A stretch of DNA of 64,000 nt from positions 62,001-126,000 of the forward strand of contig NZ_QXTF01000004.1 in NCBI RefSeq assembly GCF_003583725.1, written 5' to 3'. Numbering within the stretch: the stretch's first letter is position 1; each line of letters starts with the position of its first letter. Source of the DNA: Sphingomonas edaphi (GTDB lineage: Bacteria > Pseudomonadota > Alphaproteobacteria > Sphingomonadales > Sphingomonadaceae). Positions 11,367 through 36,647 of the stretch are shown here, in pieces. Both the position numbers and the translations under genes were made by a program. The notes under the pieces were generated by a model that saw only the letters and a list, made by a program, of their open reading frames with translations, was not told the origin of the DNA and made no database searches.

Positions 11367-14300
11367 TTAGAAGCTGATCCCGAGATTGAGATTGACGCTC
11401 TGCCGGTCGTCACCGCCGGCAAGGCGAGCATCGTAACCGATGCCGATCCGGACATTGCCGAATGCACCGTCAATGCCAGCGCTGACCCTCGCGGCATCCG
11501 CTGAACGAGCCACGCCATCAATCTGGAAGCGGGCACTGCCATCAAGGGATGCGGTCATCACGCCCTTGCGGTTGCCCATCAGATGCTCCCAGCCAAACGA
11601 CATGCGCGGGGTGATCACCCCTCCCCAGCCACTAATGTCCTTGTGCATACGGGCGCCCACCAGCGTGCGAGTGCTCCGGAAACGCTCGGCGTCGATCGAC
11701 AGTGCGGCCTCGTTGCCGTGCTCCAATGTGGCGTCCAGTTTGATCCGCTGGTGGCTCAGTTCCGCGAACGGAGCGACGTTGACGCCGTAGGCCGACATCG
11801 GCAGCGCGGCAAACAGATCCACCTGCGTGATGCGAGCATCACGCGACGAGGTCAGCTCACCATCGATGCCAGGCAAACCAACGAACCTGGTCGTGTCGAT
11901 GTCGTGCCAGCTGTGGGTGATACCGCCACCGACCTCGAGGCCAACGCCAGTGTAGGAAACGTCAGCGCCGAGCAGCTTGGAGTCCACGTCAGCCTTGCTC
12001 GCTCGAGCGTCTACGTTGATGTCGCTGTTCGCCACGCCGCCGCCTGCGCTGACGGTGAAGCCATTCGCCGCGTAGCCGAGGCCGCCGAGCAGCATGTTGT
12101 CGTCGTCGCGGGCCGTAGCTGCTCCAACGCCACTCCGCCCAACATGATTGGCCCCCGAACGGCTCGCGTCTGCCCAAAGGTACAAGGCGCCTTCCCGGCG
12201 ACGATCAGCCTTACGCATCGCCTGGACGAGGCGATTGTTCTTGTCGGCGATGGCCATCGGCGTGCTGGCGTAGATTTCGCCGGACAGCGCATCGAAGATC
12301 TGCCGGGCGCCGGAAGCGGATTGAACGATCAGCGCATCGAAGATCGCACCGCTGTCTAGGTCCTCCAAGCCTTCCGCTACGGCAAACTGGTTGTCCGTCC
12401 GCGCAGCTTCCGCAAAGTCGATGTCGTTACGCCGCAAGGTTAAGCGGACCTGGGTTGCGCTGTAGCTCAACGTCGGGTCGAGGAACGCGAGGTTGCTCGT
12501 GACGCCGTTAAACGTCCCGGTGACCGTGCCTCCCGCCTGGATGATCACATAATTGGTGATCGGCGAGTAATTGATGCCGCCCGCAAGAACCTGCACGGTT
12601 CCACCATTGATGGTGACGTTGCCGGTTGCGCTGACGAGGTCTGCCGCCGTTGGCGTCGTTTCGACCTGGTAGATGGACCCTGCCGCAAAGCTCAGGTTGC
12701 CCGCGACCTGCAGGTGACCGATCGAATTACCCGGCGCCAGAATGCCTCCGGAATTCACGACCAGACCACCGACCGTGCCATTGCCGCCGAGAATGCCGCC
12801 GTTGCCGACGGTCACGACGGAAGCAAGCGAGCCGTTCACCAGCAGCAAGCCGCCCGTTACGTCCGTGGATCCGCTGTAGGTGTTTGCACCAGTCAGTAGC
12901 AGGATGCCCGTGCCCGATTTCGTCAGGTTGCCGGTGCCAGAGATGACTCCGTCAAACTGGCTATTGAGCGCCGAAGAGACGATCAAACGGCCATCATCAA
13001 GGGTAACGCTGCCGTCGCCAACCAAGCCACCGATGGTTTCGGTGTAGCCAGCGAGGTCGAACGTTGCGCCTTCGTCGATCTCGACCAGAAGACCATCGGC
13101 CAAGCGCTCGGAAGCTCCAAGCTTCACGCTACCGCCTGCAATGAGCAAGCCGCCCGTGAATGTGTTCTGCCCAAGCAGCTCAAGCGTGCCCGAGCCATCC
13201 TTCAGGAGTCCGCCGGAACCGCTCATCACGCCGCTGAAGCTGCTGTTGTCATCCCCAACGAGGGCGAGGACATTGGCACCGAGCGTGACCGAACCGCTGC
13301 CCGACAACGTCCGGATGGCTTCGCTGCTATCCAACTGCAGCGTCGTGCCACCCGCAAGGATGACCGCTGCCGCGTTATTGATGGCTGACCCGCCCGAAAG
13401 AACCAACGTTCCGCCATTCACCGCGAAATCCGCCGTCAGGCTGTCGGTCCCGGTCAGGCTGAGCGTACCGAGGCCCGCCTTGGTGCGGCTTTCGAAGTCG
13501 ACGAACTTGGCAGCATCGTAGCTGGTCGTGCCCGAAGCGATATCGAACGTCAGGGAGTCCGAGCCAGCACCGCCTGAAGCAATCCCTCCAAGGCCGCTCC
13601 CGTTCAGCGTCAGAGCGTCGTTACCGCCACCGAGAAGTGCATTGGCCACGGTTCCACCCGCGGCCAAAGTGAGACCGTCGGACCCGGTACCTGCCGACGC
13701 ATCGTAGGAGCCATTTACAGTCCCAGCGATGTTGGTCGTGACCGCGCCAGCGCCGCTGACGAGGATCGTGCCATTCACGGTCGAGCCCTGCTGAAGATCC
13801 AGCACAGACGCGCCGCGTAGATCGATGGCAAATCCGTCGGCCCCGCCGCTGATCACACCGCCAGCAAGGTTTGTGATCGACCCACCCTGGTCGAGCCGGA
13901 TACCGTTGCCGGTGGCGAGCGTCGATTCAATCGTTCCACTGTTGGTGATGCTGGCACCGGCCGCAGAGGAATAGATCGCGCTGACGACGCTGTTATCAGA
14001 ACCGCCGACGACCTGGATCAGTCCAGCATTATTGACGATGAGACCCGTGCCGTCGCTGTAGATCGCCGCATTGCCGCCAATGAGCGTTCCGCCAGCGAGG
14101 TTTGTGATCTGGTTGCCGTCGGCCGCACCTGCGTACACCGCATTATAGATGTTGCCTGTGATCGAGCCCGCGTTGGTCAGGACCAGTTGGTCGCTCGACG
14201 CGTGCGCCACGCCCCAGCCATTGCCGCTGATGGTGCCACCTGCGAGATTGTCGATCGTGGCGCTACCGCTTGTCATCCATACGCCGGCGGTGTTGCCGGT

Positions 14301-17300
14301 CACGCCACCTTCGATCGAACCGGCATTGCTAAGGCCCAGCGGACCATTCGCAAGAACGCCCGCAGAATTGCCGCGGATCTGACCCGTGGCGGTATTTGTG
14401 ACGGTACCGCCCGATAGCAGCGAGACCGCTTCATTGCCGCTGACCGTGAGTGTTTCGCCGTCGGTCGTTCCCGACGCGATCAGGCCACTATTAATGATGA
14501 CGTCATCGCTATTGCGACCGACAACGCCCCAGCCCGATCCGACAATAGTGCCAGCGTTGTCGAGGTTGAGCGAACCGCCATTCACCAAGTCAATCGCCGA
14601 GCCGAATGCCTCGCGGATGATTGACCCACTGGCTTCGTTGACGATCGCCAAATCGCCGCCCTGGGTCGAATAGATTCCACCCAGCATGTCGCCGGCATTG
14701 AAGATCGAGACAGTGCTCGTCCCGAGCGAATGCACCGCTCCGTTGGCGCCCTCGATCAGCGCACCTTCGTCATTCGTAATAGTCGCCGAGCCAAAGGCTA
14801 AGATCGCGCGGTCGGTGCCAGTGATCTCGCCACCGGCAAGGTTCTCGAGGATGAGACCCGCTTCGCTGTAAATGCCGTAGCTGTTCCCGTGGATCAGCCC
14901 CGCGTTGGTGACATCAAGCAATCCGCCCGCATGATAGATCCCGCTGACCGATCCAAGGATCTGGCCTTCGGACTGGTTATCGATCGTGCCACCGGCATAA
15001 GTCTGGACGCCGTCATTGCCATCGGAATAGCTGAACGTGGTTCCCGACAGCGACCCAGATCCAATGAGGCCGCTGTTCGTGAGATCCAGAGTGCCGCCAG
15101 CGGAAATACCCGCGTGACGCCCCACGACCTGTCCGAAGTTTGTCAGGGTCAGATTACCAGAGGTCTGAATGCCCGCTCCGTAGCTGGTGGCATACTGTCC
15201 GTTACCGATGATCTGGCCGGTGGCTTGGTTGACGACGTTGAGCGAGCCTCCATCAAGGCCATTGAACAGCCAGCCTTGGATCACACCCGAGTTGTCGACC
15301 ACGGTGGAAGCACCGTTTGAACTACCCGTATAATAACCGCTGATCGTGCCGCCTTCGCGGTTCACGAGGTTGCTCGAAGCTCCATCCAGTCGGACACCGA
15401 CGAAAGTCGTGCTCTCGATCAAGCCCGCATTGTCGACCGTGGACGAGCCCGAAGCGCCATAGACGGCATAGTTCGCACTGGTGACCAGGCTGCCATCAGC
15501 GCCAACAACGATCTCACCATCGTTGCCTGTAACCGTGACCGAGCCGATCGAATTGTCAGCCGCGAAGATGACGCTGCTGTTGTTCACATTGGCGGTACCG
15601 GTGAAGGTAAGGCTTTCTGCAAACGTCAGCGACGCGTCGGACGCGAGGCCAGTTACGTTAAGCGAACCCGCTCCGGAAATTGCCTGGGACACGGTCCCGC
15701 TCGACGCTTGGTCGTACGTCAGAAGCCCATCGACGACGATGTTGCTGCCGGAAATCGAGCTGCTTGTGCCAACGAGCGAAGCCCCTGCTTCAATCGTTGT
15801 CGTGCCCAACCAGCTGTTGGAAGCATTGGTCAGGACGATCGTGCCGTTTCCGCCGATCGTGACATATTGCGTTGGATCGGTCGTCGCTGTCGTGCCGGTG
15901 GTGATTGCCCCGGTCAGCGTCGCGACAGAACCATTGATCGCTTCAAGCCGCGTCGGGTCAGAGCTTGCCGGTGCCGCGACTTCCAGGAGAATGTCGTTGG
16001 CGTAGGTTCCGCTGGCACCGAATTGAACCGTCGGATCGATCATGTGAATGGTGGCCGTGCCAAACGCACCGGCCGTGTCGGCGCGCAAAATCGCGCCATT
16101 CACATAGATGTCACCGGTCAGGCCCGCAGTGTTGCTGAAAGCCAGGATGCCGTCGTCATCGCCGCCATTTCCGGCGAAGAACTGTGTGAATCCGGCAGGC
16201 ACGCTGTCGACCGTCAGAGTGCCTGCACCTACTTTCCCGAGCCCTTCAAAGCCCGTGATGCTTCCAAGGCCTGCAGTTGACGTGGTCAAGTAGCCGTCAA
16301 GGAACAGCGCGTCGCTTCCCGTCCCGCCATCAATGCCCGCATGTGCAGCGCCGTTCACCAGAACGAGCAGGTCGTCCCCGCCGCCGAGAGACGAGATCGC
16401 ATTCACGGTGCCAGTCGCACCGATAAGAAGAGCGTCCGAGCCATCGCCGCCCTGGAATGCGCCGTTGAGCAGGCCGTCGAGCCGCACGGTGGCCGACGCC
16501 GTCGCGGCCACGACGATATCGCCGTTTACCGTGGATGCCGCGTTAAGGCCGATGTTCGCATGTGCGGTTCCATCGACGAGGATTGCCGTGCCGACGCCCG
16601 AAATCGTCCCACCGGTCTCGTTGATGATCGTACCGTCCGCCGAAACACGAACCGCGCCGTCGCCGCCATTGACCGTTCCAGCATTAGAGAAGACGCTACC
16701 GCTTCCGACCATCTGAACAGCCGTGCCCGGCGCGCCAATAACGCCGCTGCTGCCGACTGCGAGATTGGAATTGCTTCCAACGGTGAAGCCGCCTGCAATG
16801 CTGCTCTGGCCGTCCAGCTGAACGGTACCCCCGCCCTGGACAGCGATCATGGCGCCGGAGCCTGTGCCATTCATCAACGCCGAGGCGCTGTCGTCGGCGA
16901 TAGTTCCGGTCAGCGTAATCGTGTTGCCAGCACCGGGAGCAAGCGTAGTCGTCCCCGACATCAGGAACAGGTCGCTGCCGGCGCCCGTGCCGCCCGTTGC
17001 TTGGGTACCGCCGCCAAAACCGCCTTGTACCTGGCTGTCAGCGAATTGAACGTTGCCGCCAATAGTGATCGTTGCGCCAGCATTGACGAAGACCGCGCCG
17101 CCCAGGCCAGCGCCGCCACCGCCACCAGCCAGCGCAGGATCTGACGTCCCGGCACTACCGCTACCTGCGCCCGCTCCACCGCCTACGATCGTGCTGGTGA
17201 AAACCGATCCGCCACTACCGCCGCCGAAGCCGCCGGCGCCGCCAACGGCATAGGAGCCGCCGCCGCCGCCACCAAAGCCACCAGCCCCAGCTTCGCCATA

Positions 17301-18434
17301 AAGCGAGCCGCCGCCGCCACCGAAGGTTCCCCCGGCACCGCCCAGCGCTGCCGACGAGTCCCCGCCTGCACCGCCACCGCCAGCGCCGAAGCCGCCGTCA
17401 GCCCCGCTTCCGGAAGTACCACCGGCGCCGCCTTCACCAGTCAGGCCGCCGCCGCCACCGCCGCCGCCGCCAACCGCATAGGTGCCACTGACGTAGCCGC
17501 TGCCGCCGTCGCCGCCGCCGGGACCAGCGCCGCCACCGCCGCCACCACCGGTAGTGGAGCCGGTGACTACATAAGAAGCGGGAACATAGTAGGAGTAACA
17601 GTAGCCGCCGCCCCAGAAACTGTAATAGCAGCCGCCGCCGCTATAGGCGGGCGAGTAATAGCCGGTTGTCGCAGTCTGGGATGAACCACCGAGTCCAGCG
17701 TCGCTGCCAAAGCCCCCACTACCTGCTGCAGTCGAGGATCCCGATCCGCCGCCGTCGGTGGAAGAACCGGCATTAAGGCCACCAGCGCCGGCGGGTTGTG
17801 TCGTCGTCGTACCGTAATAGGTTGTCGAGGTACCGCCGGCTCCGCCGCCGCCGCCGCTGTAGCCACCGCCGCCGCCGCCAGCCGTGCCGCTGCCGCTGCC
17901 GCCACTGCCACCAAGGCCGCCGCCACCGCCTGCCACGTCGCCATCGGCAAGGCTGCCGCCATCGCCGCCGATAGCGCCGTTCTGCGAGAACGTAACATTA
18001 GCGACTGAGACATTACCGGCATTGACGAAGATCGCGCCACCCGCACCAAGGCCGCCACCACCAAGCCCCGCGCCGTCGCCGCCCGTTGCGACGCCATTGG
18101 TCAGCGCCGCGAAATTGATGATGCTGACGTTGGAGTCGGGCGCATCAATGAAAAAGATCCGGTTGGACGCGCCGTCGAGCGTGAACCCTGCGCCGTCAAT
18201 CGTGAGGTTGCCCGTGATCGCGGGAAGTTCGAAGGCCACGATATCATTCGCGAGAACGATCGTGTCTTCTTCTTCGCTGGCGTTTGCAGCATTGATCGCC
18301 GCAGTCAGGCTGCTGGCATCCGTCACCACATAATTTGCGGCTTGGGCCGGGAATGCGATGAGGGCCGATGAGCTTAGGATAAAGCTACGCAAAGAACCGC
18401 GCTTCGCGCGGTAACCCGACTTCACAACAGTCAT
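11367..18434 (-). CDS. Giant autotransporter (type Va) with glycine-rich passenger
   Basis: About 2355 residues. The ATG at 18434 follows GGGGA by six bases and gives a signal peptide ending near LIAFPAQA. Residues about 115-458 are a block very rich in glycine, with a tyrosine/cysteine-rich insert near residues 250-290 (CYYSFWGGGYCYSYY). A long passenger follows, made of beta-helix-type repeats of short Asn/Gly/Ile-rich strands with inserts such as LTKSGTGILLLTGANTYSG, the passenger-associated repeat typical of autotransporters. The last 275 or so residues, from GALYLWADASRSG, form the outer-membrane barrel and end in the aromatic LNLGISF. It should reach the surface through its own barrel and act in adhesion or aggregation; no protease motif is visible. 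It is divergent from the halogenase gene. Confidence 0.92.
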   Translation of the reverse strand: MTVVKSGYRAKRGSLRSFILSSSALIAFPAQAANYVVTDASSLTAAINAANASEEEDTIVLANDIVAFELPAITGNLTIDGAGFTLDGASNRIFFIDAPDSNVSIINFAALTNGVATGGDGAGLGGGGLGAGGAIFVNAGNVSVANVTFSQNGAIGGDGGSLADGDVAGGGGGLGGSGGSGSGTAGGGGGGYSGGGGGAGGTSTTYYGTTTTQPAGAGGLNAGSSTDGGGSGSSTAAGSGGFGSDAGLGGSSQTATTGYYSPAYSGGGCYYSFWGGGYCYSYYVPASYVVTGSTTGGGGGGGAGPGGGDGGSGYVSGTYAVGGGGGGGGGLTGEGGAGGTSGSGADGGFGAGGGGAGGDSSAALGGAGGTFGGGGGSLYGEAGAGGFGGGGGGSYAVGGAGGFGGGSGGSVFTSTIVGGGAGAGSGSAGTSDPALAGGGGGAGLGGAVFVNAGATITIGGNVQFADSQVQGGFGGGTQATGGTGAGSDLFLMSGTTTLAPGAGNTITLTGTIADDSASALMNGTGSGAMIAVQGGGTVQLDGQSSIAGGFTVGSNSNLAVGSSGVIGAPGTAVQMVGSGSVFSNAGTVNGGDGAVRVSADGTIINETGGTISGVGTAILVDGTAHANIGLNAASTVNGDIVVAATASATVRLDGLLNGAFQGGDGSDALLIGATGTVNAISSLGGGDDLLVLVNGAAHAGIDGGTGSDALFLDGYLTTSTAGLGSITGFEGLGKVGAGTLTVDSVPAGFTQFFAGNGGDDDGILAFSNTAGLTGDIYVNGAILRADTAGAFGTATIHMIDPTVQFGASGTYANDILLEVAAPASSDPTRLEAINGSVATLTGAITTGTTATTDPTQYVTIGGNGTIVLTNASNSWLGTTTIEAGASLVGTSSSISGSNIVVDGLLTYDQASSGTVSQAISGAGSLNVTGLASDASLTFAESLTFTGTANVNNSSVIFAADNSIGSVTVTGNDGEIVVGADGSLVTSANYAVYGASGSSTVDNAGLIESTTFVGVRLDGASSNLVNREGGTISGYYTGSSNGASTVVDNSGVIQGWLFNGLDGGSLNVVNQATGQIIGNGQYATSYGAGIQTSGNLTLTNFGQVVGRHAGISAGGTLDLTNSGLIGSGSLSGTTFSYSDGNDGVQTYAGGTIDNQSEGQILGSVSGIYHAGGLLDVTNAGLIHGNSYGIYSEAGLILENLAGGEITGTDRAILAFGSATITNDEGALIEGANGAVHSLGTSTVSIFNAGDMLGGIYSTQGGDLAIVNEASGSIIREAFGSAIDLVNGGSLNLDNAGTIVGSGWGVVGRNSDDVIINSGLIASGTTDGETLTVSGNEAVSLLSGGTVTNTATGQIRGNSAGVLANGPLGLSNAGSIEGGVTGNTAGVWMTSGSATIDNLAGGTISGNGWGVAHASSDQLVLTNAGSITGNIYNAVYAGAADGNQITNLAGGTLIGGNAAIYSDGTGLIVNNAGLIQVVGGSDNSVVSAIYSSAAGASITNSGTIESTLATGNGIRLDQGGSITNLAGGVISGGADGFAIDLRGASVLDLQQGSTVNGTILVSGAGAVTTNIAGTVNGSYDASAGTGSDGLTLAAGGTVANALLGGGNDALTLNGSGLGGIASGGAGSDSLTFDIASGTTSYDAAKFVDFESRTKAGLGTLSLTGTDSLTADFAVNGGTLVLSGGSAINNAAAVILAGGTTLQLDSSEAIRTLSGSGSVTLGANVLALVGDDNSSFSGVMSGSGGLLKDGSGTLELLGQNTFTGGLLIAGGSVKLGASERLADGLLVEIDEGATFDLAGYTETIGGLVGDGSVTLDDGRLIVSSALNSQFDGVISGTGNLTKSGTGILLLTGANTYSGSTDVTGGLLLVNGSLASVVTVGNGGILGGNGTVGGLVVNSGGILAPGNSIGHLQVAGNLSFAAGSIYQVETTPTAADLVSATGNVTINGGTVQVLAGGINYSPITNYVIIQAGGTVTGTFNGVTSNLAFLDPTLSYSATQVRLTLRRNDIDFAEAARTDNQFAVAEGLEDLDSGAIFDALIVQSASGARQIFDALSGEIYASTPMAIADKNNRLVQAMRKADRRREGALYLWADASRSGANHVGRSGVGAATARDDDNMLLGGLGYAANGFTVSAGGGVANSDINVDARASKADVDSKLLGADVSYTGVGLEVGGGITHSWHDIDTTRFVGLPGIDGELTSSRDARITQVDLFAALPMSAYGVNVAPFAELSHQRIKLDATLEHGNEAALSIDAERFRSTRTLVGARMHKDISGWGGVITPRMSFGWEHLMGNRKGVMTASLDGSARFQIDGVARSADAARVSAGIDGAFGNVRIGIGYDARLAGGDDRQSVNLNLGISF
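17060..18090 (-). repeat. Low-complexity glycine-codon tract inside the autotransporter
   Basis: On the plus strand this stretch is dominated by imperfect runs of CCGCCGCC and CCACCGCC, the complement of glycine codons, encoding stretches of up to nine glycines broken by Ser, Ala, Tyr and Thr. The longest homogeneous part lies around 17440-17550. Such tracts are prone to slippage and length variation. They are coding repeats, not a CRISPR array: there are no constant-length spacers. Confidence 0.8.
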
Positions 18435-18602
18435 GTAAATCCCCACCCCGAAATACGCCAGGCAGGTACAGGAAACAGTTCCGTTACCGTCCGGACATAA
18501 CAGAATTTCTACAAGGCAGAATTCCAGCGATCCATCAAGCCCCCCTTGCAGCCCTTCCCGGACCTCGCCCATAGGAACGCAGCTTATTTAAAAGGAAGTT
18601 TG
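18435..18602. promoter_or_regulatory. Divergent control region, autotransporter / halogenase
   Basis: A 168-base gap holding the outward-facing starts of both genes. Ribosome-binding sites are clear on each side (GGGGA on the minus strand, AAGGAAG just before the ATG at 18603). A direct repeat, CAGAATTTC at 18501-18509 and CAGAATTCC at 18517-18525, is spaced 16 bases apart and could be a regulator site; this is a weak inference. Confidence 0.4.
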
Positions 18603-20153
18603 ATGTCGGTTGATGTTTTTCCGCAACATCTAGTCATTCTAGGCGGGGGCTCGGCGGGCTGGATGGCAGCCGCTTACCTCGATCGCACCTTCAATCTTCC
18701 CGGACGCCGGCGCCTTCCAATCATCGTGGTGGAGAGCCCCGCGATTGGACGAGTCGGAGTTGGTGAAGCCACCATCCCCACTCTCCTGCGGTTCGCGCAA
18801 TTCCTGGGAATTGACGAAGCGACGTTGATGAAGCGCACGTTCGCGACCTTCAAACATGGCGTCCGGTTCCTTGACTGGAACGGCCCGGGAACCGACTATT
18901 TCCACCCGTTTGAAGCGCTGGACGCGTCGTCCAACTTCAACCCGGGTCCGAGTTGGCTCGCCAGGCGCGCTGCAGGCGTCGCGGCACCGTTCGATCTCGA
19001 AAGCGGCATTCAGCGCCGCGTTGCCCTGGCGGGCCGGGCTCCCAAGCGGATGACGGATCCTGACTACGCCGGGCTGATGCCCTACGCCTACCACCTCGAT
19101 GCCGAAGAGTTCGGCGACCTTCTCGCCGATGTCGCCCGCGATCGCGGAGTGTCGCACGTCAGTGGACGCGTGGCCGAGGTGGAAAAGTCTGAAACTGGCG
19201 ACGTACAGGCGCTGGTTCTGGATGACGGCCGCCGCATCGATGGCGACTTCTTCATCGACTGCTCTGGCTTCGCATCTGTCCTGCTTGAAAAGGCAATGGG
19301 CGTCCCGTTCGAGAGTTTCTCCGACTATCTGCTCTGCGATCGAGCCGTTGCCATGCCCAAGCCCTATGCCGACGGTGAACAGGCGCGCCCCTACACTACG
19401 GCTATCGCAATGGACCACGGTTGGTCCTGGCGTATCGGTCTGCAGCACCGCGAGGGCACGGGCTATGTATACTCAAGCAAGTTTTGCGATCAGGAAGACG
19501 CCGAACGCGCCCTCAGGATAGCGACCGGGGCCGGCGAGGAAGTGGCCGCACGCCACCTTAAGATGCGGGTTGGAATGCCGTCCGAGACCTGGCGCGGCAA
19601 TGTCGTTGCCCTTGGATTAGCCGGCGGTTTCATTGAGCCCTTGGAATCCACCGGGCTGCATATGGTTGAATTGGGCCTTGAGTATCTGGTGCGATATTTC
19701 CCGCTTTCGGGCGTCAATCCAGCGGCGCGGAGCAGGTTTAATCACCTAATGCGCAGCCGCTACCAGGAATTGCGTGATTTCGTCGTTGCCCATTATTGCC
19801 TGACGAAGCGCGCAGACACTCCGTTCTGGCAAGCGGTGCGCGACCCTGCCCAAATTCCGACCGGCGTGGCAGAAAAAACTGAACTGTGGAGCGATCGGCA
19901 TCCCGCCGCAGAAGACAATGAGTACAGCCGCCTGCTGTTCGCTCACAGCAACTGGGCCGCTGTTCTTTATGGAATGGAAGCAGTTGGAGAACTCGCCATG
20001 GCCAACTCGGCGCGCTGGTGCCCCAATCCCGGCGCCCATCTACCCGAGCTGAACGCAGCAGCCGACCGGCTCATCAATGGATTGCCCGAGCAGTCGATTT
20101 GGCTCGAGGGTCTGAAGACGATCCCGGTACGCGACCAGAGTTGGGCAGCCTAA
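18603..20153 (+). CDS. Flavin-dependent tryptophan halogenase-like protein
   Basis: A 516-residue cytoplasmic FAD-dependent halogenase that would use FADH2, oxygen and halide to halogenate tryptophan or another indole. The ATG at 18603 has AAGGAAG close upstream. The FAD motif is LGGGSAGWMAAAYL; the key lysine lies in ATFKHGVRFLDW near residue 80; the active-site glutamate and serine are in EPLESTGLHMVE near residue 345. The family motif WxWxIP reads WSWRIG here, with glycine for proline. Such genes occur in many sphingomonads and Caulobacter beside DUF6445/cupin-like genes and TonB receptors. It converges with the DUF6445-like gene, overlapping by four bases. The substrate is unknown and no flavin reductase is nearby. 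Confidence 0.9.
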   Translation: MSVDVFPQHLVILGGGSAGWMAAAYLDRTFNLPGRRRLPIIVVESPAIGRVGVGEATIPTLLRFAQFLGIDEATLMKRTFATFKHGVRFLDWNGPGTDYFHPFEALDASSNFNPGPSWLARRAAGVAAPFDLESGIQRRVALAGRAPKRMTDPDYAGLMPYAYHLDAEEFGDLLADVARDRGVSHVSGRVAEVEKSETGDVQALVLDDGRRIDGDFFIDCSGFASVLLEKAMGVPFESFSDYLLCDRAVAMPKPYADGEQARPYTTAIAMDHGWSWRIGLQHREGTGYVYSSKFCDQEDAERALRIATGAGEEVAARHLKMRVGMPSETWRGNVVALGLAGGFIEPLESTGLHMVELGLEYLVRYFPLSGVNPAARSRFNHLMRSRYQELRDFVVAHYCLTKRADTPFWQAVRDPAQIPTGVAEKTELWSDRHPAAEDNEYSRLLFAHSNWAAVLYGMEAVGELAMANSARWCPNPGAHLPELNAAADRLINGLPEQSIWLEGLKTIPVRDQSWAA

Positions 20154-20857
20154 TCGTCCAGTGCAAAGAGGAAGGACGTCATGGTCAGCCGCCCTTCCCG
20201 AGGATTTGAGCTGTAGTGAGCGTTAAGCGGGATCGCGGGAGAATGCAGGGTTGAAGCGCGATATATGATCAGGCGGTTGAATACCGCTTCGACGGTCGCC
20301 ACGCGCTCGAACAGCGGGTGCTCTTCGTCCGGGAAACCAGCGGGGAGGATTTGCTGGTTGAGTTCCTGGTTGAGGCTCTCGTTGTAACCCAGTTCTCGCT
20401 CAGCCGATATGCGCTGGTATCCGGTACTCCGATGTCTGAAGAAATGCGTACCGCCAAACTCCGGGCCGCATAGGTAGTGAACCATCGCAAGGTCATAAGG
20501 ACCGTGCTTATCGACGTGAGGCACCCGCTGATAATGTCGCAAGTTGGCGGGAGGCTGGTTGACCATCGAAAACGAAGAATCCAGCCGAAATCGTTGTTCA
20601 GCAGGGATAGCAAAAGTGCTTTTTAGGAGGGGCGAAAGCGCCTCGTAGACTGTGTCGAGATACTGTTGAGGTGCCGGCCTGCGGATACCCGGATAGGCAG
20701 CGCCGGCGGGGCCATAGACCCCGTCACTGGCCGCATAATCAACGATCGATGCTGGGTCAGCGAGCGCATTGTCTATGAGCAGCAGGGGCTCTGCCTCGGG
20801 GCCAAGTGCGTAATGCTGATATTGGGCTGCGTTATTCAGAGCGAACGACACTGTCAT
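20150..20857 (-). CDS. DUF6445 family protein, 2OG-oxygenase-like
   Basis: A 235-residue protein resembling DUF6445, often found with tryptophan halogenase genes in sphingomonads. It shows PHVDKHGPYDLAMVHYL near residue 112 (an HxD-type metal pair), then FGGTHFFRHRSTG and, near the C-terminus, a histidine in ASTLHSPA and an arginine in REGRLTMTSFLF. That order, H-x-D then H then R, is what an Fe(II)/2-oxoglutarate oxygenase would need, but enzyme activity is inferred. It converges on the halogenase and overlaps its stop. Its promoter must lie right of 20857, within the gap shared with the pilus operon. Confidence 0.75.
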   Translation of the reverse strand: MTVSFALNNAAQYQHYALGPEAEPLLLIDNALADPASIVDYAASDGVYGPAGAAYPGIRRPAPQQYLDTVYEALSPLLKSTFAIPAEQRFRLDSSFSMVNQPPANLRHYQRVPHVDKHGPYDLAMVHYLCGPEFGGTHFFRHRSTGYQRISAERELGYNESLNQELNQQILPAGFPDEEHPLFERVATVEAVFNRLIIYRASTLHSPAIPLNAHYSSNPREGRLTMTSFLFALDD

Positions 20858-21175
20858 GTCACTGCTCCTAGCCCGAAAGCCTTCGATTGGCAGTAGGCAA
20901 CATGAAAGCTGTGAAAACCGAGGTTACCGCATCGCCTGCCCCTTGCGCGGTCCTGACCGCTATTGACGCCGCGTTGAAGTAACGCCGCCGATCGTAAGCC
21001 GATATTTGTCCCATAATGGGAACGGCCGAAGGAGCGCCGACCTACCGTAAAACTACCGTAAACTGTCTTGTGTTATATTTTCGTTAAACTAGGAGGGTAA
21101 ACGAAAGTTAGTACTCGAGTCGTGGCGGGCCGTGCGCGTGCTGCCATTGCTCAGCGGGGGGTTCCGGTGGCCTGT
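20858..21175. promoter_or_regulatory. Upstream region of pilus operon 1, with paired TACCGTA boxes
   Basis: No gene is seen here. TACCGTA occurs twice in the same direction, at 21043-21049 and 21054-21060, 11 bases apart, which places them on one face of the helix. A TATATT-like sequence follows at about 21074, and a start-proximal GGTGG precedes the ATG at 21176. The gap also holds the promoter of the DUF6445-like gene on the other strand. The boxes look like an activator or repressor site for the pilus operon. Confidence 0.5.
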
Positions 21176-21748
21176 ATGAGCGTTTCGCGAGCAGTTCTCG
21201 CAGCCATTGCGCTAACCCTGAGCGCAACCGCGGCCCACTCGGCTACCATTCCTGACAATCTCGCCAGCAGCCTTCGGTATCGCGTGACCGGCACGATCCC
21301 AACTTCCTGCTCGCTGTCTCAACCTGTTTCCGCCGTTGAAGTCATCGGGCTTCAGAATTCCGCGACCGATACCGTCAACGCGACGCAGACCGACCTGCCC
21401 TTCACGATTAGCTGCACCACTGCCGTCCAGGTGAGCATGTCCTCGCTCAATGGTGGCCTTCAAACCGACAGAACAACGAGCGACGCGGACTTCGCATCCC
21501 GCGTTGAATATCGCGCAACGCTGGATCTGCCCGGCAACAGCAGCGTCCTTGAATGCCGGAGCAACGTGATGAACGCGGGCGGTTGCCGCCGGACGCTCGT
21601 CAATGAAGCGCTCGAGGGCAACGGGCGCATCCGCCTCAATACACAGACCTCGGACGACCTGCTTCTTGCGGGCACTTACGCCGATACGGTCACTCTCACC
21701 ATTTCACCGCGCCTCGATGGCGGCAACGCAAGCGCGGTCACCCAATGA
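21176..21748 (+). CDS. Pilin-like subunit of chaperone-usher operon 1
   Basis: A 190-residue exported protein. The signal peptide runs to about AATAAHSA, then the mature part starts TIPDNLASSLRYRVTGTIP. Four cysteines are seen (TSCSL, ISCTT, LECRS, GGCRR), which can form two disulfides, and the C-terminus ends with alternating hydrophobic residues (YADTVTLTISPRL) like a strand that docks with a chaperone. It is the first gene of an operon with a second pilin, PapD-like chaperone, usher and tip-like protein. The ATG at 21176 is preferred over a GTG at 21122 because it places the signal peptide at the N-terminus. Confidence 0.75.
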   Translation: MSVSRAVLAAIALTLSATAAHSATIPDNLASSLRYRVTGTIPTSCSLSQPVSAVEVIGLQNSATDTVNATQTDLPFTISCTTAVQVSMSSLNGGLQTDRTTSDADFASRVEYRATLDLPGNSSVLECRSNVMNAGGCRRTLVNEALEGNGRIRLNTQTSDDLLLAGTYADTVTLTISPRLDGGNASAVTQ

Positions 21749-21840
21749 TCGGGGCCTCCAGCTCCATCTACAGCCCACCGGATGTCGGCGGGCGCCAGTC
21801 GCTGAACTTGCGACCCGTACACACCAAGAGGAGACGCGTA

Positions 21841-22446
21841 ATGAAGAAGTTTATCTTTGCTGCCCTTGCAGCCTCGACCATTGCAACGCCTGCACTGGCC
21901 CAGGATTGGAAGGGCAAGACCTATGGCCAGGACGCCTGGGGCATCTACCAGGTGTCGGCTACCGTCGACAGCTTCTGCAAGTTCGGCACTGCCAACACCG
22001 GCCAGAACGGTGGCAACGGCACTGCGGACACCAACTATCTTGGTGGAGCCAATGAAGCGGACGGTCGCTTCCTCCTCGACATCCAGGACAACTCGGACAA
22101 CACCGTCCAGGCGGCTCGCGCGCAGTACAACATCGGCTACGCGGTCTGCAATTCGCCCTTCAACATGCAGCTTGCGTCGGACAACGGCGGCCTGAAGTCG
22201 GACGCATCCACGAGCGACCCTGCGTTCATCGAGAACGTCCCTTACGACGTCAATTTCGCGTTCGACGGCAACACCGCCAACAAGCGCAGCGATCAGCTGA
22301 GCGTTGGCTTCAGCACGATCACTTCGGTCAACGAAGCTCGCGCCGGCGCCGCTCACGTTCGCGTTTCGGTCGCGGCTGCTGACCAGCTGCTGCTCGAAGG
22401 CACCTACAGCGACCGCCTGCAGGCTCGCCTGTCGCCGGTCCTCTAA
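21841..22446 (+). CDS. Probable major pilin of chaperone-usher operon 1
   Basis: A 201-residue exported protein. AGGAG lies eight bases before the ATG; the signal peptide ends at ATPALAQ. Two cysteines (SFCKFG and YAVCNSP) could form the disulfide typical of pilins, and the C-terminus LEGTYSDRLQARLSPVL resembles that of the preceding pilin (LAGTYADTVTLTISPRL), so the two are distant paralogues. The gene ends just before a perfect 13-bp hairpin, as seen in pilus operons where the pilin is made in excess over assembly proteins. The polymer is probably a surface fibre assembled by the adjacent chaperone and usher. Confidence 0.78.
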   Translation: MKKFIFAALAASTIATPALAQDWKGKTYGQDAWGIYQVSATVDSFCKFGTANTGQNGGNGTADTNYLGGANEADGRFLLDIQDNSDNTVQAARAQYNIGYAVCNSPFNMQLASDNGGLKSDASTSDPAFIENVPYDVNFAFDGNTANKRSDQLSVGFSTITSVNEARAGAAHVRVSVAAADQLLLEGTYSDRLQARLSPVL

Positions 22447-22455
22447 CTTTTTAAG

Positions 22456-22485
22456 GCAAAGGGGAGAGTAACCTCTCCCCTTTGC
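22456..22485 (+). terminator. Strong hairpin between pilin and chaperone genes
   Basis: A perfect 13-bp stem (22456-22468 pairing with 22473-22485) with the four-base loop TAAC, ten bases past the pilin stop. It is followed by TATTCTTG, a poor T-run, so it is probably a partial terminator or an mRNA-stabilising end that lowers expression of the downstream assembly genes. Confidence 0.75.
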
Positions 22486-22547
22486 TATTCTTGTAGAACT
22501 TGCGCTCCACATAGGGCGGAAAATTTATCGGCGGGGATGTCAGCGTA

Positions 22548-23297
22548 ATGTGGCGTAATTGGTTTTCGGCTGCGGTGCTGTCATCGCTGCTGGGCGCGTT
22601 CTTGATGGTCGCAGCGCCCGCCATCGCTCTCCTTGTCCGACCTGTCGTTATCGAGCTCGACGCAACCGGCGGCGGCTCCAGTTCCTCCCTCGAAGTCGTT
22701 AACGACCGCAATGTCGCTATGACCGTGGAAGTCAAAGTCTCGGACCTCTCGCTCCCCGAGAAGGGCGCGCCCGTCCTGACTGCCAGCGATGGCAAGGACT
22801 TCCTTATCTTCCCGACGATCGCAAAGGTGCAGCCCGGTGGCCGGCAGGTCTTCCGCGTGCGCTACATCGGCGATCCGAGGCTTGCTAAGAGCAAGCTCTT
22901 CATGTTCTCGACCTCCGAGTTGCCGCTCGAGAACGACAAGACGGAAAAGCAGGCACAGCTCCAGGTCCTCTATTCCATCAATTCGGTGGTTGCGGTCCGG
23001 CCGTCAAAGGCGACCGCCGACATCCGCGTTGTCGATGCCAAGCGCGCTACTAACGACAAGGGCGAAGCTGGCCTTGAACTCACCTTCACCAATGATGGCG
23101 CCGCCCATGGGTTCATCGGCATGGCAAACATGTCCCTGCAGGCCGGAGCATGGTCCAAGAACCTGGATCGCAACGAGATGGGCAAGGCCTTCGGTCTCGG
23201 TCTCATTCCGGCCCAGTCACGCCGTATCATGTTCGTGGCGCTGGCGGACTTACCTGCGTCGGGTTCGATCGACGCAACTGTCAAACCCGGCGCCTGA
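22548..23297 (+). CDS. Periplasmic pilus chaperone (PapD-like)
   Basis: A 249-residue periplasmic chaperone that would fold pilins by donor-strand complementation and hand them to the usher. A hydrophobic signal segment occupies residues 8-30. The first domain has LVRPVVIELDATGG and SLEVVNDRNVAMTVEVKV, then IFPTIAKVQPGGRQVFRVRY near residue 90, the usual start of the FGS-loop region of the family. The second domain carries LELTFTNDGAAHGFIGM. Length is typical. It lies between the hairpin after the major pilin and the usher gene, which begins 14 bases after its stop. Confidence 0.85.
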   Translation: MWRNWFSAAVLSSLLGAFLMVAAPAIALLVRPVVIELDATGGGSSSSLEVVNDRNVAMTVEVKVSDLSLPEKGAPVLTASDGKDFLIFPTIAKVQPGGRQVFRVRYIGDPRLAKSKLFMFSTSELPLENDKTEKQAQLQVLYSINSVVAVRPSKATADIRVVDAKRATNDKGEAGLELTFTNDGAAHGFIGMANMSLQAGAWSKNLDRNEMGKAFGLGLIPAQSRRIMFVALADLPASGSIDATVKPGA

Positions 23298-23311
23298 AGC
23301 CCGGGACCCAC

Positions 23312-25822
23312 ATGAACACGCTGACACCCCGCCGCGGCTTAATGAGCCTGCTCGCATCCGTCGGCATTTCAGCTTTCATTCTTCCCTGCTCTTCATGGGC
23401 AAACCAAACCTCACGAGATCCCGCCCCTACCGCTGCGCAAACTACAGCCCAGCCAACCAACGTTCCTGCGGTCCTCAACTCAACCGGTAGCCCGATCGAA
23501 CTCATCGTGCCGCTGCGAGAGCGGGTTCCCCTAGGCCAGGTCCGCATCCGGATCTTGCCCGACGATACCGTCGAGGTCTCCAAGGCGGACCTCGTCAATG
23601 CGGTTCGGCGCGGCGTTACGCCGCAATTCGTCGCGCACCTCGAAGGTACGGCAACTCCGAGCGGCTTCATCGACATCAAGGCGCTAGCTGCCCAAGGGCT
23701 TACGCTCCGTTTCGACACTGCTGAGCTTGAACTGCTGGCGACGTTCGACGCTTCCGCGTTCCCCGAACGGCGAATTGGACTTGGCTTTGATACGGTTTCC
23801 AGTGGCGCTGAGCCGGACGCATCCGCCTCCGTTGCGGCCTTTCTATCCTATCAAGGCAGCTGGGACTGGGTTCACAGCGGTTTCGACACCGGACTTCGTG
23901 AACCCCGGGTCAATTTCCAGTTCAACGGTCGACTTCTCCGGACCTTCGCCTTTGAGAACGAGTTCACCTACAACGGCAACGAACGGCGCGAGTTCACGCG
24001 TTTTGGATCTCGTGCCTTCCACGACATCCCGAGCAGCGCACTCCGCATTGGTCTTGGCGACCTCATCCCGATTACGACGGCGCTCCAGGAGCAGAGCGAC
24101 ATAGGCGGCATTGGCATTTCCAAGCTGCTCTCGACATTCCAGTCCGACCGCGTGTTCACCGCTTCAGCCGGTCGAAAGCTGACACTTCGCGAGCCAGCCA
24201 CGGTCACCATCATCATCAATGGCGCACCGTCCCGGACCCTGCGCCTGATGCCGGGCAGCTACGACATTCAGGACCTGCCGCTGACCGGTGGCGCAAACCA
24301 GGTCGAACTACTGATCGAGGACGATGCTGGCGGCCGCCGGCTTGTCTCGTTCGATTTCTTCGAAGACGTTCTCCTGCTCGCGCCGGGTGTCGACGAATAT
24401 GACGCGAAGATCGGCGTGCGCAGCGACGTCGACGAGCGCGGCCGCTACTATTTTGAGAATGAGCCGGTTTTCTCTGGCTTCTATCGGCGCGGAATTACGG
24501 ACCAATTGACGATCGGTGGTAATGCCCAGACCAGCCGGGATGCGGTCCAGGTCGGCGGCGAAGTCACCTACGGGTCCCGCCTTGGCCTCGTAACCTTGGA
24601 AGCGAGCGCCAGCCGCCTTGACGATTACGGTACCGGTACGGCGATGCGCCTGCAGTATCGCTACTCAGCGCCCATGAAGACGCTGACGGGCAGCCGTCGC
24701 TTCGACTTGCTGACGCTCTACCGAAGCAAAGACTTCGGCGGCATCGAAGGCGCACCGAATAATCCTTACTCGGTCAGTGTCTCGGCCCGCTACAGCCAGC
24801 CTGTTTCAGAGCGACTGTCAGGCGGAGTTGGCGCGGACTATCGCCGCGGCCGCGACGGCGTGCGCGATTTCAAGGCGATACGCGCCGACGCCAATTATCG
24901 GCTGCGCAACAACATGAATCTCACGGGCTCGGTCGGTTACGAGAACCGTAGTGGCCTTGTCTTCGGCGCCTCGCTCTTCTGGCGCCTGGGCCGAGAGGCC
25001 TTGGCGACCGCGCGCTATGACAGCCGCAACGATGCTGCCAGCGTTGCCTATTTCCATACGCCAGAGCGCCTGCTCGACACCGTTGCCTGGGGAGTGGAAG
25101 GTACGCATTCTGAAGGCGGACGATGGGGCGCCAACGCAACCGCGATCTACCGAGGCAATCGCGGTGACTTCGAACTTGCTCATCGCACTACGTTCGGGAC
25201 CGAGGGCCAGCCGCGCGACCAGGCATCCTCGCTTCGCGCCCGAGGAACCATTGCTTTTGCAGATGGCCAGCTCGCCCTCGGCCGCTATCTCACCAGCAGC
25301 TTTGCGATCGTCGAACCTCACGAAAGCCTGGGCGACGCACAGGTCTACATCGGCAACCGCGTTGCCGCCGATGCCGAAGCTCGCTCTGGCGCGCTTGGTC
25401 CCGCCCTTGTCAGCCTTGGCTCCTACTCCAAGCGTTCGCTCTACTACAGCGTGCCCGATGCCCCGATCGGCTATGACTTTGGGTCAGGAACCTTGGACCT
25501 TTATGCGTGGGAGCATGCAGGCTTCAGCCGAACTATCGGTTCTGAGTTCAACGTCTCGATCACCGGACGACTGGTCGATCCCAATGGCCAGCCTCTTGCC
25601 CTTGCGATCGGTACCGCAAAGCGGCTGAACGACCCGTCCTCACCTACGGTCGAAATCTACACCAACCGCGATGGACGCCTTGGCGCGTCGGGCTTGGCAC
25701 CCGGGTACTGGCTCATCGACGCCGGCGGATATCAATATCCTCTGACCATTCGTGCCGAGGACGGCGCGTTGCTGAACGTGGAAGAACTGCGCCCCAACTC
25801 CAAGGGAGAGAATTCGCGATGA
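23312..25822 (+). CDS. Outer-membrane usher of chaperone-usher operon 1
   Basis: An 836-residue outer-membrane protein that recruits chaperone-subunit complexes and threads the pilus through its barrel. The ATG at 23312 gives a signal peptide ending near CSSWANQ. The N-terminal domain region precedes a barrel with strands such as NGRLLRTFAFENEFTYNG, and a plug/linker-like region VTIIINGAPSRTLRLMPGSY near residue 300, followed by FDFFEDVLLLAPGVDEYDAKIG. A C-terminal carboxypeptidase-like fold begins around VSITGRLVDPNGQPLALA. Length matches ushers. The last codons overlap the start of the tip-like gene by ATGA. Upstream in-frame starts overlap the chaperone gene and are less likely. Confidence 0.88.
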   Translation: MNTLTPRRGLMSLLASVGISAFILPCSSWANQTSRDPAPTAAQTTAQPTNVPAVLNSTGSPIELIVPLRERVPLGQVRIRILPDDTVEVSKADLVNAVRRGVTPQFVAHLEGTATPSGFIDIKALAAQGLTLRFDTAELELLATFDASAFPERRIGLGFDTVSSGAEPDASASVAAFLSYQGSWDWVHSGFDTGLREPRVNFQFNGRLLRTFAFENEFTYNGNERREFTRFGSRAFHDIPSSALRIGLGDLIPITTALQEQSDIGGIGISKLLSTFQSDRVFTASAGRKLTLREPATVTIIINGAPSRTLRLMPGSYDIQDLPLTGGANQVELLIEDDAGGRRLVSFDFFEDVLLLAPGVDEYDAKIGVRSDVDERGRYYFENEPVFSGFYRRGITDQLTIGGNAQTSRDAVQVGGEVTYGSRLGLVTLEASASRLDDYGTGTAMRLQYRYSAPMKTLTGSRRFDLLTLYRSKDFGGIEGAPNNPYSVSVSARYSQPVSERLSGGVGADYRRGRDGVRDFKAIRADANYRLRNNMNLTGSVGYENRSGLVFGASLFWRLGREALATARYDSRNDAASVAYFHTPERLLDTVAWGVEGTHSEGGRWGANATAIYRGNRGDFELAHRTTFGTEGQPRDQASSLRARGTIAFADGQLALGRYLTSSFAIVEPHESLGDAQVYIGNRVAADAEARSGALGPALVSLGSYSKRSLYYSVPDAPIGYDFGSGTLDLYAWEHAGFSRTIGSEFNVSITGRLVDPNGQPLALAIGTAKRLNDPSSPTVEIYTNRDGRLGASGLAPGYWLIDAGGYQYPLTIRAEDGALLNVEELRPNSKGENSR

Positions 25823-26694
25823 AACTGGCTCATCTTCTTCTCCTCGCAACTGCCGCGGCGATCCCCACGGCTGCCAGCGCGGCCGCGAAAGACTGCCGTG
25901 TTTTGCCGACACGGATCGATCCCACCCCCATCACGGTCAACTACGACCCCTTCGAGGTCGCGCCGGTCAACGAGGCCTTCAACGTAGAGGTGAGGACCGA
26001 AGACTGCCCGGATCCGCGCAATATCTTCCTCGAAGTCAGCTCCGACGATCCAACAGCAATTGATGGCCGCACCGTGTCCGCGCGGGGGCCTGGAGGACAG
26101 ATCGTCCGGGCGATCCTCTCAGACAGGACCACCAGCAACGGGCGTGACAAGTTCTTCAACGTTAAGCTCGGCATCCAGGAGTTCTACGTTCTTATTGACC
26201 GGGGCCAGGTCGTTCCGCCCGGCGTTTACCGCGCGCCCCTGATTGCCAAGACGGTCCTTAATCAGGGCAACAACACGCCTGAGGCGCTTACCTCGTTCGA
26301 ACTCGTGATCGTCGTCGGAGCAGCAGTTGGCCTGGCGCCGGCATCCTCGATGGAAATCAGTCTCGGCACCCTGGAGAATAACGACACGGCCATGGCGCCA
26401 GCGTCCTTCGATGCCTATGCCAACATCGATTACGAACTCGAAATCCTGTCGGACAATGGTTTTCGCCTAGTCCGGGACGGTCTTCCCGGACAGGCAGCAG
26501 TTGCGTTCGTCCCCGTACTCGATGCGCAGCTGCTGCCACCTTTTTCAGCGCGAGCGACCTTTGCTCGTCCGCTAGGTGCAGACAGCCGTCGTCGCCACCA
26601 ACTGAACGCGAAGGTGCCGTCGATCGCCGGCGCACCGGCGGGCGATTATGAGGACGTGGTGACCGTCCAGATCAGCGCGAAGCTCGGGGGTTAG
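25819..26694 (+). CDS. Tip adhesin-like protein of chaperone-usher operon 1
   Basis: A 291-residue exported protein, signal peptide ending at PTAASAAA. Two cysteines lie near the mature N-terminus (KDCRVLP and EDCPDPRN). The rest is beta-rich, and the C-terminus ends YEDVVTVQISAKLGG, like the terminal strand of pilin domains. Being last in the operon, longer than the two pilins and with two domains, it probably forms the fibre tip and binds a receptor. It overlaps the usher by ATGA and converges on the minus-strand pilin-like gene with a four-base overlap. I do not recognise a named family. Confidence 0.65.
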   Translation: MKLAHLLLLATAAAIPTAASAAAKDCRVLPTRIDPTPITVNYDPFEVAPVNEAFNVEVRTEDCPDPRNIFLEVSSDDPTAIDGRTVSARGPGGQIVRAILSDRTTSNGRDKFFNVKLGIQEFYVLIDRGQVVPPGVYRAPLIAKTVLNQGNNTPEALTSFELVIVVGAAVGLAPASSMEISLGTLENNDTAMAPASFDAYANIDYELEILSDNGFRLVRDGLPGQAAVAFVPVLDAQLLPPFSARATFARPLGADSRRRHQLNAKVPSIAGAPAGDYEDVVTVQISAKLGG

Positions 26695-34652: not shown

Positions 34653-36647
34653 TCAACTAGCCCGTAGCGCGGTCGCGAAGTCTTCGAGTGCGATGATCTT
34701 TGACTGGGCTATCTCCTTAGACCGCTCTGCTGAAACCGGCTCTGCCATTCCGAAGCCCTGCCCATAGCGGCAACCAAGCTGCCGCAGCAGCATCAACTGC
34801 GCCTCCGTTTCAATATGTTCCGCGATGCATTGCTGCCCCATGGCTTTGCACAAGGCGAGCACGCCGCGCAGCAGGGGCAAGCCCGAATGAGCCGAGTGGA
34901 CAGAGGAAACGAGCGAGCCATCAAGCTTCACGGTGTCAAAGTTGATTTCCCGAAGATAATTGATCGACGAATAACCCGCCCCGAAATCATCGAGTGCGAT
35001 CCGTGCGCCGGCCTGGCTGAGTTGGGCGAGATTCTTACGCGCTGTTTTAAAATCGCTGAATAGCGCTGTTTCGGTGACCTCTACCTGCAACCGCTGGGGT
35101 GACAGTCCGGCCTCCCTGATGATGCGCAACACGCGAGCGGCGTAGCCATCCGTACAAAGTTCAACCGGGCTTAGGTTGAAAGACAGCCGGATAGAAGCGG
35201 GCCATTGCAGAGCAACCTCAGCCGCCTTGCCCAGAAGCGTTTCGGTCAGTTGCTCAATGACGTTCAACTGCTCCGTTATCGGAATAAACTCGGCCGGCGA
35301 AATCCAGCCAAGCTCGGAATGCTTCCAGCGCGCCAGAGCTTCAAAAGCGCGGAGCTCCAACGTTTCCAGATGAAATATCGGCTGAAATGCCAGCTCGACG
35401 TCATTGACTGTCCCCGGCTGACGAAGCGCCTGCTCGATAGCAGTCCGCCTCTGGATGTCCTGCCGCATCGCTAATGAGAATGACTCGACGACGCCTCGGC
35501 CCATCCCTTTGGCAGTATAAAGTGCGATGTCCGCTTCGCGCATGACCTCGGTCAGGTCCTGCGATGAATCGCGAAACGATAAGCCCCCACACGCGGAAAC
35601 CATCATTTTCCGGCCGCCGAGTTCGTACGGTACGGAAACCAGTGCCACTGCACGTTGAACCATTTCAAACGCCTGATCGGCAGATTGCGTCTCGAACAGT
35701 ATGGCGAACTCGTCACCACCAAGCCGCGCTACCAGATCGGTCGGTGCAAAAACGGTGGAGAGGCGCTCCCCCACCTGCAGTAGCAACTGATCCCCCGTGG
35801 GATGGCCGAACGTGTCGTTGATGGGCTTGAAGCCGTCCAAGTCTAAAATTGCGACGGCTCGGCCGACATTGTTATATTGATCGCTCTCAATTGCGCGGAG
35901 GAACCCACGCCTGTTTGCAAGACCGGTCAGCTGGTCGGAGTGCGCAATAACGCCAACCCGCTCCTGCTCGGCGAGGGCCACGGTTTCAGCGGCAATTGCC
36001 CGGGTACGCTGCTCTTCGATGTCGTAGCGCGAGGATACGAGACGCAGGAATGCGCGGTCCTGGACCGTCAACATTCGCAAAATGAGCAGGGAAAGCAGGA
36101 TGAGGCACAAGCCCGCTCCCACCTGTATGGGATCTCCAGACACGATCAGCAGGGCGGCCATCGGCAGGTTAAGGATAAGGATGGCGGCCCGAGCTGATGC
36201 CGGAAAGCTGCTGAGGCCGTAGCAGGCGCCAATCGACGTCAGGCACGAGAACATGACTGCGGCCATCGGCCGCGTGTCGGCGCGGTATCCGTACAGCGTC
36301 ATAACCCACGCGCAGAAAGTCGCGCAGACGAGCAGCGTCACGAAAAAGCTGGCTCGCAGCTCCCGCTGGATCTTGGAATCCTCAATCCTTCGGTTGCCAT
36401 TCCTGAGCCAATAGATGGCGCGCGCTCCTATGAACGCCAGGAAGAATATCGTCGGATCATAGCCGCCGAACTGCTCTGGAATGACGGTAAAATGCAGCCC
36501 CATGAGATTGGCGACAAAGATGCCGTACACCCACGGGAACTGCTTCTTTAACGCAATAAAGCGCTGCCTAAGAATGGCGTTGTCGTGCGCCGTCTCCGCC
36601 GGAATGCCCAGTGCTCTGTCAATGGTCATCAGAAGACGCCAACTCAT
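34653..36647 (-). CDS. Membrane GGDEF-EAL c-di-GMP enzyme
   Basis: A 664-residue protein. About six hydrophobic segments in residues 35-195 form a membrane sensor. The diguanylate cyclase domain has ARLGGDEFAILF near residue 317 with intact GGDEF, but the RxxD inhibitory site is absent (APTD in that position). The EAL domain has FEALARWKH near residue 425 and ALDDFGAGYSSINYL near residue 550, so its metal-binding set looks complete. It could make and degrade c-di-GMP, with phosphodiesterase activity likely. It starts a run of minus-strand signalling genes; the winged-helix gene lies about 100 bases upstream. Confidence 0.93.
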   Translation of the reverse strand: MSWRLLMTIDRALGIPAETAHDNAILRQRFIALKKQFPWVYGIFVANLMGLHFTVIPEQFGGYDPTIFFLAFIGARAIYWLRNGNRRIEDSKIQRELRASFFVTLLVCATFCAWVMTLYGYRADTRPMAAVMFSCLTSIGACYGLSSFPASARAAILILNLPMAALLIVSGDPIQVGAGLCLILLSLLILRMLTVQDRAFLRLVSSRYDIEEQRTRAIAAETVALAEQERVGVIAHSDQLTGLANRRGFLRAIESDQYNNVGRAVAILDLDGFKPINDTFGHPTGDQLLLQVGERLSTVFAPTDLVARLGGDEFAILFETQSADQAFEMVQRAVALVSVPYELGGRKMMVSACGGLSFRDSSQDLTEVMREADIALYTAKGMGRGVVESFSLAMRQDIQRRTAIEQALRQPGTVNDVELAFQPIFHLETLELRAFEALARWKHSELGWISPAEFIPITEQLNVIEQLTETLLGKAAEVALQWPASIRLSFNLSPVELCTDGYAARVLRIIREAGLSPQRLQVEVTETALFSDFKTARKNLAQLSQAGARIALDDFGAGYSSINYLREINFDTVKLDGSLVSSVHSAHSGLPLLRGVLALCKAMGQQCIAEHIETEAQLMLLRQLGCRYGQGFGMAEPVSAERSKEIAQSKIIALEDFATALRAS

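Follow-up and report, generated by a model that had tools for sequence, protein, structure and literature searches.

The flavin-dependent halogenase (FDH), the DUF6445 protein and the autotransporter encoded side by side in the window (the whole 64,000-nt stretch of Sphingomonas edaphi DNA analysed here) form a partner-swapped variant of a recurrent arrangement of an FDH, a 2-oxoglutarate (2OG)-type oxygenase and an outer-membrane protein. The reading that we favour, tentatively and with less than even confidence, is that the three genes make up one module, in which the cytoplasmic FDH and DUF6445 protein would modify the autotransporter passenger at a cysteine-bracketed loop before export. 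Readings in which the enzymes act upon a small molecule, or in which the adjacency is simply inherited, rank close behind. The features are as follows, where G239 is the second genome of the genus in which the trio is found.

11367–18434, minus strand: autotransporter of 2355 aa (signal, PATR, barrel-region match, 69% identical ortholog in G239)
11370–12935, minus strand: C-terminal translocator region, approximate (NF051851 match, residues 1880–2399 of the long ORF)
17571–17660, minus strand: Tyr/Trp cluster round the loop, residues 259–288 (11 Y/W in 30 residues)
17598–17630, minus strand: passenger loop CYYSFWGGGYC, residues 269–279 (conserved in G239)
18435–18602, no strand: divergent intergenic region of 168 bp (alignment with G239)
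18603–20153, plus strand: FDH of the Trp_halogenase family, 516 aa (PF04820, 482 bits)
20150–20857, minus strand: DUF6445 protein, predicted Fe(II)/2OG oxygenase, 235 aa (PF20043, 255 bits)

The FDH and autotransporter genes diverge from the intergenic region, while the FDH and DUF6445 genes converge and their ends overlap by 4 bp (20150–20153). In G239 the two enzyme genes abut, with a gap of 2 bp instead of the overlap. This layout, confirmed in the window (part of a 2.37-Mb genome), is that described by the first-pass annotation, which was also right locally in seeing no flavin reductase; a single flavin reductase (PF01613) is encoded elsewhere in the genome (C5:36254). The FDH is likely to start at the ATG at 18603, judged by the Shine–Dalgarno-like AAAGGAAG upstream, and the TTG at 18546 given by the mechanical ORF call probably lies too far upstream. 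Aligned with its G239 counterpart, the divergent region has conserved stretches, such as CCCACCCCGAAATACGCC beside the start of the autotransporter. An inverted repeat within it, TCCG-N8-CGGA, is also kept in G239 and is a possible operator. No consensus sigma-70 promoter was found in the divergent region, and an Rfam search over 9–23 kb of the window gave no match.

The 516-aa protein is predicted to be a halogenating FDH on the basis of its FAD site, its catalytic lysine and glutamate and its PF04820 domain. The GxGxxG of the FAD site is present as GGGSAGW, and Lys84 (18852–18854) and Glu345 (19635–19637) are invariant in an alignment of 24 FDHs comprising the window protein and 23 relatives. 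Solved tryptophan halogenases match the sequence (best E = 1e-95), and the AF2 model (pLDDT 89.5) has PyrH as its best PDB match, with a TM score of 0.89. There is no evident signal peptide. The WxWxIP motif reads WSWRIG in the translation, so that both tryptophans and the isoleucine are kept and the proline is replaced by glycine, where most relatives have WxWRIP. The enzyme may for this reason be a monooxygenase, and the pair would then hydroxylate; this is very unlikely, as Lys84, Glu345 and the whole fold are retained and the Pro-to-Gly change alone is no proof of lost halogenation.

The 16-residue lid segment that serves free tryptophan in PyrH is absent from the window FDH, and YPYYHG of PyrH aligns with NEYSRL, whereby the tyrosine pair is lost. 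Having neither lid loop nor Tyr pair, the protein does not classify as a PyrH-type free-tryptophan halogenase. BrvH and Xcc4156 also have short lids, and their open sites have prompted the suggestion of peptide substrates (PMC5945002, PMC7336383), and indole is weakly brominated by BrvH (PMC5945002). By sequence the window FDH is an isolated lineage, the relatives beyond G239 being at most 45% identical. An exact-pattern scan of 84,980 species, which may leave out the genome itself, returned no FDH ortholog above 43% identity, and the plasmids searched held no close ortholog of either the FDH or the DUF6445 protein.

The DUF6445 protein is well supported as an Fe(II)/2OG oxygenase by its motif and modelled fold. 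The motif residues are H114, D116, H205 and R223; among 41 members the HxD is conserved in 39, and the distal histidine and arginine in all. The AF2 model (pLDDT 93) is a double-stranded beta-helix, and its PDB matches at E ≤ 0.001 are nearly all Fe/2OG oxygenases, with two uncharacterized proteins included. The small-molecule enzymes SnoN, HygX and PtlH match as well as protein hydroxylases do, and these matches do not discriminate between the substrate classes. A search of open-access papers turned up none on DUF6445. The nearest relatives of the protein lie in glycoside-hydrolase operons with no FDH within the stretches read, and at half of the DUF6445 loci read no FDH is within reach, both of which weaken the case for a dedicated module.

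DUF6445 proteins occur in other settings also. Viral contigs (IMG/VR, L162–L186) encode distant DUF6445-like proteins in which the Fe/2OG residues are present, and the phage relatives too retain the HxD...H...R motif; the label of the best PHROGs family, ‘minor coat protein’, was rejected given that motif and the fold. At L042:9548-12774, L052:9544-13760 and L048:6726-10270 a DUF6445 gene adjoins a YadA-type trimeric autotransporter, with no FDH in reach, and these YadA-type proteins carry two cysteines near the mature N-terminus. The association was dropped as main evidence, since the chromosomal setting of these DUF6445 genes (ThiC, S9 peptidase, AbgT) is shared by relatives without an adjacent YadA.

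Halogenases of this kind had been noted in the first-pass annotation as usual neighbours of TonB receptors, with the neighbour here being different, and both points hold. Among 80 named FDH loci a TonB receptor lies within 600 bp at 54 and within 5 kb at 63, and within the clade of the window FDH one is found within 4 kb at 27 of 31 loci. The clade loci lacking it comprise the pair with the trio plus two more, of which one is on a 3.9-kb contig. The autotransporter therefore stands where clade relatives normally have a TonB receptor, and is an unusual partner. Distant FDH–DUF6445 pairs are likewise accompanied by TonB receptors, not autotransporters, and the second FDH of the window genome (L034) adjoins a TonB receptor, a LacI-type regulator and alpha-amylases.

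A 2OG-type oxygenase is present at 26 of the 80 FDH loci (Cupin_8/JmjC-like at 15, AspH-like at 8 and DUF6445 at 4), and these families include protein hydroxylases. On a Sphingomonas sanguinis plasmid the genes for a TonB receptor, a DUF6445 protein and an FDH are consecutive, and the same three families occur together on a Catenovulum plasmid. This recurrent pairing of FDHs with 2OG-type oxygenases, together with the plasmid row, favours the proposal that the window enzymes work as a unit with an outer-membrane protein. SapC (PF07277) is another recurrent neighbour, located within 5 kb at 14 of the 80 loci (L101, L087 and L119 among them). In a coarse test the TonB receptors adjacent to FDHs had no excess of tryptophan and tyrosine relative to other TonB receptors, and there is thus no sign of a general rule that an FDH modifies its outer-membrane neighbour. 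A literature search for FDHs with TonB receptors or autotransporters found nothing relevant.

The FDH ortholog occurs in just one other of 71 congeneric genomes, G239, where the trio has identical orientation and the proteins are 77% (FDH), 77% (DUF6445) and 69% (autotransporter, 2356 aa) identical to those of the window. Across the order (299 genomes), neither the FDH ortholog nor the autotransporter is found outside these same two; the survey of relatives proposed in the first-pass annotation thus finds the autotransporter beside the sole other FDH–DUF6445 ortholog pair. In a clade otherwise linked to TonB receptors, this co-occurrence argues for a single module. As both genomes belong to one genus, the trio represents one evolutionary origin; a nominal chance figure calculated for the co-occurrence disregards this and is not to be taken as a probability.

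It may be that the autotransporter landed beside the FDH–DUF6445 pair before the two species split and has stayed there with no functional tie. The trio is indeed confined to one genus, which weakens the modular proposal because the adjacency could be inherited, and the window and G239 share their gene order between 36 and 64 kb, so that synteny is partly retained anyway. The left side is different. There the window has a chaperone–usher set, a TIR–TPR gene and a TonB receptor in place of the sensor kinase and response regulator of G239, neither the usher nor the acyltransferase of the window is matched in G239, and the GGDEF–EAL gene of 34653 has changed both place and orientation, while the trio is intact. 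Moreover the trio is better conserved than two genes nearby, those at 34653 and 27216, which are 45 and 65% identical between the genomes. Adjacency by inheritance alone is rather unlikely, and the conservation of content and orientation while neighbours were replaced or inverted favours the view that the three genes belong together.

The chaperone–usher type set (21122–26694) lies beside the trio and comprises a PapD-like chaperone, an usher and putative subunits. A TIR-domain protein with TPR repeats (PF13676; 29091–31352, plus strand) is without an equivalent in the corresponding part of G239 and is a possible signalling or defence gene. Between 36752 and 44468 lies a cluster of GGDEF–EAL, PAS sensor kinase and MarR-like genes that is collinear in G239, with identities of just 44–59%.

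The autotransporter, putatively of type Va, begins with a Sec signal (..SSSALIAFPAQA), and continues as a Gly-rich and then a repetitive passenger with PATR, before ending in the presumed barrel region. The latter is matched by the NCBIfam autotransporter protease model NF051851 alone, at 265 bits and thus below that model's cut-off of 1700, and there is no hit to PF03797. The passenger had been described in the first-pass annotation as rich in aromatic residues. Overall this is wrong, phenylalanine, tryptophan and tyrosine making up 5.5% of the whole protein; instead there is one Cys-bracketed cluster. Its core is CYYSFWGGGYC in the window and CYYSWWGGSYC in G239. The two cysteines of the loop are the only ones in the autotransporter in both species, and the loop tryptophan of the window protein is the only one in its first 870 residues. 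The highest number of Y/W per 30 residues is 11 in the window protein and 12 in that of G239, against maxima of 6 and 8 in shuffled sequences. Identity at non-Gly positions is 75% in the loop compared with 33–44% around it in the Gly-rich region, and W/Y/C positions are kept at 7 of 8 in the loop versus 9 of 23 outside it within the same region (Fisher p = 0.04), these statistics being derived from two sequences and from a loop picked before it was tested, which lessens their weight for the modular proposal. Among 399 genomes of the family, a sample with G239 outside it, the DNA pattern of the loop was found only as the window's own copy. The conservation of the loop and its sole cysteines, taken with an FDH that is devoid of the PyrH lid segment (lid loops being short in BrvH and Xcc4156 also), favours the passenger as candidate substrate.

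We infer that both enzymes are active and have a common substrate, that this is the passenger, and that the loop is its target. The FDH (using FADH2, O2 and halide) and the DUF6445 protein (using Fe(II), 2-oxoglutarate and O2) would act in the cytoplasm, most likely upon the unfolded passenger before Sec export. The single aromatic loop CYYS[FW]WGG[GS]YC would be modified, and then shown on the cell surface. The more specific proposition, that aromatic residues of the surface-displayed loop are both halogenated and hydroxylated by the two enzymes together, is unlikely.

The substrate of the enzymes could instead be a small molecule or a free peptide, such as an aromatic compound or a signal; the autotransporter would then be co-regulated, or bind or present it, and its passenger would stay unmodified. 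For most characterized FDHs of the same fold the substrates are small indoles (BrvH: PMC5945002), and carbohydrate-uptake loci house relatives of the FDH and DUF6445 proteins alongside LacI regulators, amylases and glycoside hydrolases. The sugars of these loci vary while the enzymes stay, however, suggesting that an imported sugar is unlikely to be the substrate, and the unit itself has no evident biosynthetic gene or product transporter. On balance a small-molecule substrate is somewhat unlikely.

Should the passenger loop indeed be halogenated and hydroxylated by the pair, a surface protein of a bacterium would be the target of a halogenating enzyme, which would hint that FDHs linked to TonB receptors likewise have outer-membrane proteins as substrates. 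We know of no natural substrate for the BrvH-like halogenases; the candidate here is one defined protein and one defined loop.

Among known systems, those of the TibC type have the genes of enzyme and autotransporter side by side, and the modification occurs before export. A TibC-type heptosyltransferase modifies an autotransporter passenger (PMC4358343), and its working with TibA and AIDA-I offers an analogy for the trio, where modification is a proposal; TibC glycosylates, and is unrelated in sequence to either enzyme of the trio. The peptide halogenase MibH is, like the window protein, an FDH, and acts on a peptide (PMC7336383). Its sequence (PDB 5uao, E = 3e-67) is more distant from the window FDH than are other solved FDHs, and its substrate is a short peptide, whereas a surface protein is the candidate here. 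The Fe(II)/2OG protein hydroxylases PHD2 and NO66 have the double-stranded beta-helix and the HxD...H...R residues in common with DUF6445, but with TM scores of just ~0.2–0.55. The FDH–TonB receptor loci of sphingomonads, Caulobacterales and Alteromonadales share with the window the FDH family (that of BrvH and Xcc4156) and its catalytic residues, an adjacent gene for an outer-membrane protein, and often a nearby 2OG-type oxygenase (including DUF6445) or SapC. The window differs from them in that an apparently classical autotransporter takes the place of the TonB receptor, and its FDH belongs to an isolated lineage.
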